Shown here piece by piece: positions 58,809 through 61,035 of a stretch of 64,000 nt of DNA. The translations under genes were made by a program, and so were the position numbers. The stretch covers positions 1 through 64,000 of the forward strand of contig UCLB01000006.1 in the NCBI GenBank assembly GCA_900473205.1, given 5' to 3'. The stretch is from Hyphomicrobiales bacterium. GTDB taxonomy: Bacteria; Pseudomonadota; Alphaproteobacteria; Rhizobiales; Rhizobiaceae. The notes beneath the pieces were generated by a model. That model was not told the DNA's origin. It did no database searches and saw only the letters and a program-made list of their open reading frames with translations. The number at the start of each line of letters is the position of its first letter. Within the stretch, counting starts at the first letter, position 1.

Positions 58809-59244
58809 CGCGCTTCTCCATGCGTCGGAAACTTTTGTTCGTCCGTATCTATCGCAAGCGGATTGCAGGGGCAAGAAACAAATAGTATCTCTTTTGAAAA
58901 TGATATGACAACACTGCGCCTCGCAACTTTTGTTTGCAAATCGAACGGGAAAGCCGTTGAAACGCCGGGATTACGCCGAAAAAACAACTTTGATCTTGAC
59001 GAAATCACAAAGTTGCGAGACTACAAAGGCATTCCAGCCCCTGACATCGGGCTTGGAGATTGAACTTTGGTGCCGGGCCCCTCTGGCGAGAGTTTTACGG
59101 CGCTCTCGCGATGTCGGTACCGCCTGCTTATGACGCCGGCGGATTTAAACCCATGAAAAATCTGACCATGCATTCCATGCGTGCACTTTGCGCCATGCCT
59201 GCTCCACGTTTTCCCGTTCGCCCAACCCGCGCGGGAGCCCTGTG
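58809..59244. other. 436-base gap upstream of the DUF475 gene
   Basis: No gene seen. It contains two base-pairing features on the plus strand: CAACTTTG (58985-58992) / CAAAGTTG (59008-59015), and a compound hairpin with GCGAGAG (59086-59092) / CTCTCGC (59103-59109) nested inside GCCGG (about 59072) / CCGGC (about 59136). Together they suggest a long structured leader for the DUF475 gene. The core of the manganese riboswitch often found before TerC-like genes was not recognised. Confidence 0.45.
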
Positions 59245-60351
59245 ATGACACCGACAACAAAATCCTCACTCACCTATTTCAAATGGGCCTTCATCGTCAC
59301 CGTCGTCGGCCTGCTGCTGGGCGGCTGGCTCGGCTGGGAAATGACGGGCACCATCAGCGGAACGGCCACGATCTTCTTCATCTGCGCGGTTCTCGCGGTT
59401 CTGGAAATCTCGCTGTCCTTCGATAATGCCATCGTCAATGCCAACAAGCTGAAAGACATGACGCCGGAATGGCAGCATCGCTTTTTGACCTGGGGCATTC
59501 TCATCGCCGTTTTCGGCATGCGTATCGTCTTCCCGTTGCTCATCGTCGTCATCGCGGCCAATGTCGGCCCGTGGACGGCCATGGTCATGGCCGCGACGGA
59601 ACCAGAGCGTTATGCGCAGATCATGAAGGACGCACACCTGCCGATTGCGGCCTTTGGTGGCACCTTCCTGATGATGGTCGGTCTCAGCTTCTTCTTCGAT
59701 CATGAGAAGGACGTGCACTGGGTTCGCTGGTTCGAAGAGAAGATCGCGACCTATTCGTCGATCAAGGGCATCGAGATCGCTTTCGTGCTGATCGTCATGC
59801 TGGTCTTTTCGCGCATCATCGCCAACAGCGCTGATCCAGCGCTGGGTCCCGAAGCAGCTACTCTCTTCTTCAGTTCGGCGATCTGGGGTCTGTTGACCTT
59901 CCTTCTGGTCGAAGTTCTGGGCGGTATTCTGGACCGCAGCCAGCAGGTGCTGGAAGGTGCGGCAAAGGGCGGTTTCGGCGCGTTCCTTTACCTCGAAGTG
60001 CTGGATGCCAGCTTCTCCTTCGATGGCGTCATCGGCGCTTTCGCGCTGACATCCAACCTCTTCATCATCGCCATCGGTCTTGGCATCGGTGCCATGTATG
60101 TGCGCTCGATGACCATCATGCTGGTCGAAAAGGGAACGTTGGCGGAATACCGCTATCTCGAGCATGGCGCGTTTTATGCCATCCTCATCCTTTCGGTCAT
60201 CATGTATGTCCAGAGCCTTGTCCACATTCCGGAAGTGATCACCGGTCTGGGCGGCGCAACGCTCATCGGCATCTCGCTGTGGTCCTCCATTCGCTACAAC
60301 AGGCAGGAGAAGGCACGGGAAGTCGAAGGCGCGCAGGGCGCCGAGATTTAA
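59245..60351 (+). CDS. DUF475/TerC-superfamily membrane protein
   Basis: Integral membrane protein of 368 residues with about nine spans. The two repeats of the family signature are EISLSFDNAIVNANKLKDM near residue 70 and LDASFSFDGVIGAFALTSN near 255; in each, acidic and Asn residues within the membrane resemble the metal-binding sites of TerC/YceF-type transporters. Members are often linked with manganese export or tellurite tolerance; DUF475 itself lacks a proven substrate. The ATG at 59245 has GGAG eight bases upstream. A terminator follows at 60423. Confidence 0.85.
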   Translation: MTPTTKSSLTYFKWAFIVTVVGLLLGGWLGWEMTGTISGTATIFFICAVLAVLEISLSFDNAIVNANKLKDMTPEWQHRFLTWGILIAVFGMRIVFPLLIVVIAANVGPWTAMVMAATEPERYAQIMKDAHLPIAAFGGTFLMMVGLSFFFDHEKDVHWVRWFEEKIATYSSIKGIEIAFVLIVMLVFSRIIANSADPALGPEAATLFFSSAIWGLLTFLLVEVLGGILDRSQQVLEGAAKGGFGAFLYLEVLDASFSFDGVIGAFALTSNLFIIAIGLGIGAMYVRSMTIMLVEKGTLAEYRYLEHGAFYAILILSVIMYVQSLVHIPEVITGLGGATLIGISLWSSIRYNRQEKAREVEGAQGAEI

Positions 60352-60422
60352 AGCTTTTCAGGCTGTTCATCTCTAAGTGAACGGCGCGGAATTGTGCGAT
60401 GCTACAATATCGCTTAAAATAT

Positions 60423-60455
60423 AAGCTCCGGCGGCAACCCCGTCGGAGCTTTTTG
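60423..60455 (+). terminator. rho-independent terminator after the DUF475 gene
   Basis: AAGCTCCGGCGG and CCGTCGGAGCTT pair with one G-T wobble, followed by TTTTG. It lies about 70 bases after the stop codon. Confidence 0.8.
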
Positions 60456-60499: not shown

Positions 60500-60516
60500 T
60501 GGCACGCTTGATGCAT
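60500..60516 (+). promoter_or_regulatory. predicted sigma-54 (RpoN) promoter
   Basis: TGGCACGCTTGATGCAT carries the invariant GG (60501-60502) and GC (60513-60514) ten bases apart and matches TGGCACG-N4-TTGCA with one mismatch. Transcription would begin near 60525. Confidence 0.65.
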
Positions 60517-60524
60517 GTCTCTCT

Positions 60525-60626
60525 TCAAGTCCAGAGGGGACGCAAAGCTCGAAAACGAGCGCAAGACCGCCGCCACATCAATGCGCACCAAGGTGCAGAC
60601 ATCATGGGCGGCGGTTTTGTTTTGTT
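60525..60626 (+). ncRNA. candidate sigma-54-dependent small RNA or regulatory leader
   Basis: Downstream of the sigma-54 promoter lies a compact structured sequence with no good open frame. GCTCG-AAAA-CGAGC (60547-60560) forms a tetraloop hairpin. Then CCGCCGCC (60567-60574) and GGCGGCGG (60607-60614) form a perfect stem enclosing a smaller hairpin around GCACC/GGTGC, followed by TTTTGTTTTGTT. This is the shape of a rho-independent terminator ending an RNA of about 100 bases. It could be a free small RNA or an attenuator before the MarR-type gene at 60691. Whether it belongs to a described rhizobial sRNA family cannot be decided here. Confidence 0.55.
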
Positions 60627-60690
60627 CATTGATTTGCGCCAAAATCATTCGGATGACCTTTGTGGATTGCAAACGAACGGAGCCGGGAAC

Positions 60691-61035
60691 GTGTCTGTCG
60701 AACTGTCGCCAAGCCAGGCGCTGAACCTCTGGCACCGCGTGGTGCTGGCGCAGGTCGAGGAAGATGCGCCGGATCTGACGGCCCGGCAGATGGCAATTCT
60801 GCTCCACATCTATCTCGTGCCGCCACCGCATACCGTTAGAGGGCTGGCTTCCGTGCTGGGCGTCACCAAACCCGTCATCACCCGGGCGCTGGACAGCATG
60901 GGCACTCTGGGGCTGGTGGACCGGGAGCGCGATGAGCGTGACCGCCGCAATGTCATCATCAAACGCACGGTGGCTGGCGCGCTTTATCTGGAAAAATTTG
61001 GCGATCTGATCATCGAGCACGCCCGCAGGGCTTAG
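60691..61035 (+). CDS. MarR-type winged-helix regulator (short)
   Basis: Protein of 114 residues, shorter than usual MarR proteins (about 140). The winged helix covers residues 25-95: LTARQMAILLHIYLVPPPHTVRGLASVLGVTKPVITRALDSM (in parts) includes the recognition helix, and RERDERDRRNVIIKRT is the wing. The N-terminal dimerisation helix is short. It starts at GTG 60691 with CGGAG nine bases before; open frame to 60508 overlaps the RNA candidate and is discounted. Targets are unknown; the NlpC/P60 gene follows 69 bases later on the same strand. Confidence 0.82.
   Translation: MSVELSPSQALNLWHRVVLAQVEEDAPDLTARQMAILLHIYLVPPPHTVRGLASVLGVTKPVITRALDSMGTLGLVDRERDERDRRNVIIKRTVAGALYLEKFGDLIIEHARRA

Follow-up and report, generated by a model that had tools for sequence, protein, structure and literature searches.

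What is encoded between a terC-like gene and a MarR-family gene in a Rhizobiaceae genome of 5.0 Mb (55 contigs), and is it a regulator in its own right or the leader of the gene that follows? For the 64-kb stretch of this genome that was analysed (the window), a first-pass annotation had proposed a near-consensus -24/-12 promoter driving a compact structured RNA of about 100 nt with a GCTCG-AAAA-CGAGC hairpin and a perfect terminator stem with a T-rich end, and had left the choice between a free sRNA and an attenuator of the marR gene open. The promoter, the hairpin and the terminator stem are all present as proposed; overlooked was the hairpin P1 at 60529-60541, which is the most conserved part of the RNA. 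The locus is composed as follows.

59245..60351, + strand: terC-like gene, upstream (DUF475/TerC, from Pfam).
60500..60515, + strand: sigma-54 promoter TGGCACG-N5-TGCA (-24/-12), from sequence and conservation in relatives.
60526..60626, + strand: small RNA gene of about 100 nt, with the start predicted from the -12 box and the end from the U tract.
60529..60541, + strand: hairpin P1, GTCC-AGAGG-GGAC, at the 5′ end of the RNA; identical in 34 of 34 distinct sequences of the genus.
60547..60560, + strand: hairpin P2, GCTCG-AAAA-CGAGC, from the fold and compensatory changes.
60567..60626, + strand: P3, terminator stem CCGCCGCC/GGCGGCGG enclosing an internal arm, then TTTTGTTTTGTT, from the fold and covariation.
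60624..60642, no strand assigned: block conserved 3′ of the terminator (GTTCATTGATTTGCGCCAA), a candidate marR control element, from an alignment of 15 Agrobacterium-group loci.
60691..61035, + strand: MarR-family gene, downstream, 114 aa, GTG start (Pfam MarR_2/MarR; start region conserved).

The promoter, TGGCACGCTTGATGCA at 60500-60515, sits between the terC-like and MarR-family genes. On both strands of the 64 kb, TGGCACGNNNNNTGCW has one exact match, at 60500-60515, where 0.20 are expected, and 18 of 100 shuffled windows contained at least one. The match by itself is mildly improbable, and it is conservation that makes the predicted promoter convincing. TGGC-N8-TGC stands 12-17 nt 5′ of GTCCAGAGGGGAC in 39 of 39 loci found with blastn in the genus, which were picked without a promoter criterion (36 genomes; three loci are double, and L014, L016 and L026 were removed as doubles in several counts). 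Of 178 distinct promoter-hairpin sequences, 147 carry TGGCAC as the -24 hexamer and 31 carry TGGCAT; in 176 of them 13-16 nt separate TGC from GTCC, in a set mostly fetched with a pattern that fixes TGGC and a gap of 12-17 nt. The conserved block therefore starts at the predicted +1, which the -12 box places at 60526. The GG-N10-GC promoter and its fixed distance to this predicted start are those of a sigma-54 (RpoN)-dependent gene. Among the 30 best covariance-model loci, found in a search that required no promoter with a model trained largely on loci fetched by the promoter pattern, the sigma-54 promoter is present in 28 and promoter plus hairpin pattern in 27. Within these 30 the spacer is longer at L231, which has the promoter; the -24 box is degraded at L227; and at L230 (genome G158, genus g121) the RNA stands without a sigma-54 promoter. 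P1 of L230 is closed by a G-U pair, and a change of sigma factor or decay is possible there.

P1, GTCCAGAGGGGAC, begins at the predicted transcription start. The arms of the terminator stem, CCGCCGCC at 60567-60574 and GGCGGCGG at 60607-60614, surround a 32-nt internal arm and are followed by TTTTGTTTTGTT, with the U tract ending near 60626; P3 is missing from the list of a simple terminator scan. According to the predicted fold the RNA has a free energy of -48.6 kcal/mol, compared with a mean of -28.1 for shuffled sequences (z -6.06; reached by 0 of 200 shuffles). A comparison with Rfam, which the first-pass annotation had recommended, returned no family at or above its gathering threshold at the small RNA. 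Both rnk_pseudo (RF01772; 21.0 bits, E 0.1, gathering score 55) and BSnc120 (RF02621; 15.3 bits, E 0.65, gathering score 114) align over the whole model to the window RNA far under their gathering scores and were rejected. Across the window the terC RNA motif alone (RF03067; 64.7 bits, 59065-59126, upstream of the terC-like gene) reached its threshold.

Plain MAFFT with RNAalifold misaligned P2 and lost it, and covariance models were used instead. The first model (R1), run on 98 of roughly 204 sources, found the RNA in 72 of them with 73 matches, one of which, on the plus strand of L003, is probably an antisense echo; nearly all of the 26 sources that it missed contain the RNA by pattern. In an alignment of 72 distinct rows that was fitted to the structure by R1, 97.8% of cells are paired, compared with at most 63.0% in slid versions, changes on both sides occur at 11 of 16 pairs (117 cells), and 0 of 500 shuffles reach any of five covariation measures. 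P1 is uninformative on pairing in this alignment because it is invariant there, and most of the loci had been selected by the P1 pattern. In model-found genomes P1 does vary (L227 has GGGGGC, L230 has GGGGAT, and L285 carries an additional G), and one-letter variants occur in a few other genera.

How far does the RNA extend beyond this genome? With blastn the region was found in 36 of 101 genomes (own included), all of the same genus, where it is present in 36 of 39. The exact 15-mer AAGTCCAGAGGGGAC and the promoter occur at all 39 loci from these 36 genomes; it should be kept in mind that these loci (L001-L039) come from a search that itself needs a conserved stretch. Across the 34 distinct RNAs of the genus the 15-mer is unchanged while the mean column identity of the RNA is 68%; P1 is fixed in all of them, and P2 and P3 change with compensation. 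Poor conservation of the stems and promoter in relatives had been named as a reason to abandon the idea, and here promoter, spacing and stems are kept. In the family, the 15-mer with at most one mismatch occurs in 95 of 394 genomes, partly by chance, since a reversed control also matches in many; its repeated forms there are A[AGT]GTCCAGAGGGGAC. A promoter and hairpin scan of a public genome collection gave at least 119 loci. Among the matches listed (80 titles), 79 belong to the Rhizobiales by name, including Agrobacterium, Rhizobium, Neorhizobium, Sinorhizobium/Ensifer, Shinella, Ciceribacter, Xaviernesmea, Nitratireductor, Mycoplana and others; the remaining title is that of a metagenome bin labelled Arenimonas. 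The RNA on this ‘MAG: Arenimonas’ contig (L079) is close in form to that of Ciceribacter (L084), which probably reflects a binning error. The promoter-hairpin pattern is found in 16 of 16 genomes of one genus and 24 of 33 of another; the identity of P1 in L070-L188 and L234-L269 exists by construction, as these were obtained by pattern search.

At E<=0.001 a second model, R2, matches 100 of the 297 family genomes, which represent 43 of 109 genera. The covariance model match to the window RNA covers 60527-60626, the window sequence being also in the training set. Below about 30 bits the model matches include terminators of other genes: in ten matched regions that were read (nine at about 22-30 bits, and the stronger L287), L284, L285 and L287 resemble the RNA. 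The loci L204-L233 are the best-scoring model loci only. Taken at the level of sequence, the observation of a sigma-54 promoter and a structured small RNA at 60500-60626 is confirmed, and the conserved promoter, spacing and stems give computational support to a compact RNA of about 100 nt.

Which activator would a sigma-54 promoter of this kind depend on? Upstream of the RNA promoters we found an NtrC-type motif, GC-N-Y-AAAWTTT-R-N-GC, which in the window corresponds to the following sites.

60409..60429, no strand assigned: NtrC-type upstream activator site ATCGCTTAAAATATAAGCTCC, 14.4 bits with the learned motif, centred about 107 bp before +1.
60337..60357, no strand assigned: possible further NtrC-type site over the end of terC, 8.6 bits, at the 95% level of the background.
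60380..60400, no strand assigned: possible weak NtrC-type site, 5.2 bits, under the 95% level of the background.

Near-identical upstream regions were removed (152 to 84 in one analysis of the first motif described below, 151 to 114 in a second one and for the NtrC-type model). In the 114 regions that were left, the NtrC-type motif had 106 sites and reached a log-likelihood of 658; retrained on eight shuffled sets it gave 144-170 with 57.5-61 sites. The background consisted of 509 windows of 200 bp, mostly coding DNA, with a 95% level of 8.5 bits and a 99% level of 11.3 bits. The 95% level was exceeded by 108 of 114 upstream regions, on which the motif itself had been trained, and by 52 of 57 regions in a held-out half when the motif was trained on the other half. 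The nitrogen link suggested by the first-pass annotation is thereby strengthened, and NtrC-type sites lie upstream of the promoter as in members of the NtrC regulon. The motif was seeded with the enteric NtrC consensus. Independent positives come from the window genome itself, where the glnK-amtB promoter has two NtrC-type sites (15.0 and 15.4 bits) and the promoter of the nas operon three (13.1, 14.1 and 12.5 bits); the dctA promoter scores 5.3 bits. An earlier upstream motif, the inward palindrome TTTTGTGC-N3-GCACAAAA, was rejected, with a likelihood of 637 vs 658 for the NtrC-type model and 71 sites vs 106 in the 114 regions; in the own genome it gave 6 sites vs 2 for a control, none of them beside a sigma-54 box pattern. 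An arrangement of two abutting NtrC-type sites is weak as well (at least 12 of 16 letters in 9 of 114 regions vs 1.6% of shuffles).

The high motif score at the genome's own glnK-amtB promoter makes NtrC a likely activator of the small RNA. The sigma-54 activator domain has nine matches in the window genome, six of them strong, among them a TacA-like and an NtrX-like protein. The TacA-like activator was rejected because the genera g19, g121, g125 and g132 hold RNA hits and have no match to it at E<=1e-110. The GAFTGA motif is absent from the NtrX-like protein. With these two set aside NtrC becomes the best candidate, and DctD was rejected on account of the low NtrC-type motif score at the dctA promoter. 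In the available portions of the literature we noticed no report of an NtrC-controlled RNA of such kind in Rhizobiaceae.

The gene neighbourhood bears on whether the RNA is free. We compared 179 distinct loci, most of them fetched by motif. The order LuxR, RNA, Mrp is found at 107 and the window type, terC, RNA, marR, at 35; NasS, RNA, nitrate transporter occurs at six and NasS-like, RNA, Mrp at two, with NasS upstream at eight in all; a further 12 loci are followed by Mrp, and at the remaining 17 the neighbours are others or unread. LuxR and Mrp are named from similarity to genes read in genome G824. Since promoter and terminator are kept while the neighbours change, a free trans-acting sRNA fits better than a marR leader, and this reading is favoured by the comparison. 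A cis-acting leader, in which a regulated terminator downstream of the sigma-54 start at 60526 would decide marR expression, we regard as unlikely. It gains from the fact that marR lies downstream at all 35 distinct loci with terC upstream, on the strand of the RNA, with 65 bp from the terminator to the marR start. However, among the 144 distinct loci without terC, 143 are readable downstream and none has a marR match, so that the question left open by the first-pass annotation now leans to the free sRNA; the predicted fold of the RNA alone offers no alternative antiterminator, and a conserved block after the terminator may be part of marR's own control region. This block, GTTCAttGATTTGCGcCAA, is kept with changes 3′ of the terminator in the 15 Agrobacterium-group loci. 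The block contains a palindrome, TTG-CGC-CAA, at 60634-60642, a possible MarR operator.

Could the RNA instead be of the ANTAR type, bound as a decoy or leader by NasT, the antiterminator that responds to nitrate? NasT binds a nasA leader (PMC3795266), and targets of ANTAR proteins have two hexaloop hairpins whose loops carry A in the first and G in the fourth position (PMC3369931). In the window genome there is a single ANTAR match. Six distinct loci have the RNA between a NasS-like gene and a nitrate transporter gene; in these RNAs P2 is a stem of 6 or 7 bp with a hexaloop AACGAA, AACGAC or AATGAA, which carries the A1 and G4 signature of PMC3369931. A gene resembling the ANTAR protein of the window genome precedes nasS at L105. 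At L075 and L134 a NasS-like gene lies between a luxR-type gene and RNA plus Mrp, an order (LuxR, NasS-like, RNA, Mrp) found in one lineage, and at L151 NasS is upstream and Mrp downstream of the RNA. The NasS-like protein of L075 has 55.5% identity to NasS of L105, 39% to NasS of the window genome and 28-30% to NrtA. The RNA family shares with ANTAR targets two small hairpins before a terminator and, in the nas-locus relatives, the P2 hexaloop. Still, binding of NasT by the window RNA appears improbable, as ANTAR targets have two such hexaloop hairpins (PMC3369931), whereas P1 has a loop of five bases and P2 an AAAA loop. There is no A1/G4 hexaloop hairpin of at least 4 pairs in the window RNA and one in each of the six nas-locus RNAs, and with a crude hairpin finder the 14 commonest P2 classes of the Mrp-side group (66 of 117 distinct RNAs) do not fit. 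The nas operon of the window genome, moreover, has a leader of its own, different from the window RNA and bearing two A1/G4 hexaloop hairpins (0.8% of 500 shuffles contain two or more), and the window RNA is therefore not the nas leader.

The start of that operon (contig C22, L290, reverse strand) reads nasT-nasS-leader-nrtA, the leader being located between nasS and nrtA. This intergenic region contains a sigma-54 promoter together with three NtrC-type sites, two hairpins with A1/G4 hexaloops and a T-run after a GC-rich stem, and in sequence it looks like an ANTAR leader.

A short coding transcript in place of a non-coding RNA is very improbable, because although ORFs overlap the small-RNA interval, the example that begins with an ATG at 60515 precedes the predicted start at 60526, the P1-P2 gaps differ by 1-4 nt among relatives, and sequence changes in the RNA track base pairing.

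Is this RNA related to one already described? SmelC165 of S. meliloti is a single-copy trans-sRNA at 910182-910297 (+) with a predicted RpoN promoter, and in strain 1021 the SRP RNA at 259927 (+) lies 650.3 kb from it (PMC7143759). The corresponding family model, RFMSmelC165, is described with complete microsynteny and stems interrupted by internal loops, and with relatives in Sinorhizobium, Rhizobium and Agrobacterium and none in A. tumefaciens and A. radiobacter (PMC3927594). No function is given for SmelC165 in the available portions of PMC3927594 and PMC7143759. In genome G824 (3.77-Mb chromosome), whose genus group contains a promoter identical in sequence to that of Sinorhizobium kostiense L103, 654.7 kb separate the SRP RNA at 207300 (+) from the start of the small RNA at 862038 (+). 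In two other genomes of the Sinorhizobium group the corresponding distance is 630.3 kb (G822) and, measured across the origin, 676.9 kb (G829), and because of these deviations the match is suggestive, not exact. The promoter of G824 is TGGCATG-N5-TGCA and the predicted +1 is 121 nt from the end of TTTTC, in keeping with the RpoN-type promoter and 116-nt length of SmelC165.

The window RNA and the Sinorhizobium RNA can be placed in one family, as the pattern occurs in 24 of 33 genomes of the genus of G824; R2, the sources of which included Sinorhizobium/Ensifer loci, matches genus g85 at E 8.3e-6 to 4.1e-7. In the published descriptions SmelC165 resembles this family in being a single-copy, 116-nt, + strand RNA with a predicted RpoN promoter, stems with internal loops and a U tail, and possibly in its distance from the SRP RNA gene. 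It differs in the complete microsynteny reported for the members known in 2011, since the neighbours of the window RNA are terC and marR and 107 of 179 loci are of the LuxR and Mrp type, and in the absence of A. tumefaciens and A. radiobacter members from the published family. Map position, strand, size and the published RpoN prediction, in a comparison that did not extend to the sequences, suggest that the Sinorhizobium form is SmelC165. The window RNA very likely represents, in Agrobacterium, a family that is known but still unexplained. In members of the Ensifer/Sinorhizobium type (for example L090, L180 and L270) the P3 arm contains CCCGGATGTACGGACAC with a loop GGAUGUA, which equals the loop motif reported for another sRNA family, SmelB053, and for related 3′ UTRs of cold-shock genes (PMC3927594).

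Taken together, the locus probably encodes a real, conserved small RNA that is under sigma-54 and probably NtrC control. Our preferred explanation, which we hold with reasonable though not full confidence, is a stand-alone trans-acting sRNA, the probable Agrobacterium counterpart of SmelC165, made by sigma-54 with phosphorylated NtrC under nitrogen limitation. In such a scheme phosphorylated NtrC would bind the upstream site when nitrogen is limiting, and the sigma-54 RNA polymerase would transcribe the small RNA from the promoter at 60500-60515. The RNA would end at its own terminator and would presumably act in trans, with the 5′ hairpin GUCC-AGAGG-GGAC as its putative working part. Most likely P1 would pair, through its loop and its 3′ arm, with target mRNAs rich in C and U, and the next most likely mode would be protein binding; P2 would serve as a stabilising stem and P3 as the terminator. 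Counting against this explanation are the position of the RNA at six loci, where a nitrate-operon leader would be expected, the marR gene downstream of all 35 distinct loci with terC upstream, the majority of family genomes in which R2 has no hit at E<=0.001 (100 of 297 match), and the promoters of L230 (missing) and L227 (degraded -24 box).

NalA and NrsZ of Pseudomonas aeruginosa are nitrogen-controlled RNAs linked to sigma-54 and NtrC, and NalA is the leader of a nitrate operon. The window RNA resembles them in its predicted sigma-54 and nitrogen control and differs from NalA in not being a nitrate-operon leader. The NasS-side loci suggest descent from such a leader and not present-day binding of NasT. 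The LuxR, NasS-like, RNA, Mrp order would form the bridge between the nitrate-operon leader and the luxR-mrp locus. Tentatively, and as a history that we consider possible but doubtful, an NtrC/sigma-54-controlled leader of nitrate assimilation might have moved together with nasS to luxR-mrp; nasS would have been lost, the RNA would have become a free regulator with its 5′ hairpin frozen, and in Agrobacterium it would have moved on to terC.

What would the preferred explanation mean for the Rhizobiaceae? An orphan RNA (probably SmelC165) that occurs in symbionts and in plant-associated bacteria would become a testable part of the NtrC response, with a likely working element that can be named: a 13-nt hairpin, kept while the remainder of the RNA drifts. 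The family would extend to the A. tumefaciens group, where it had been reported missing. It may also be a case of a nitrate-operon leader turned free sRNA; if this is true, a cis-acting antitermination leader became a nitrogen-stress trans-sRNA.
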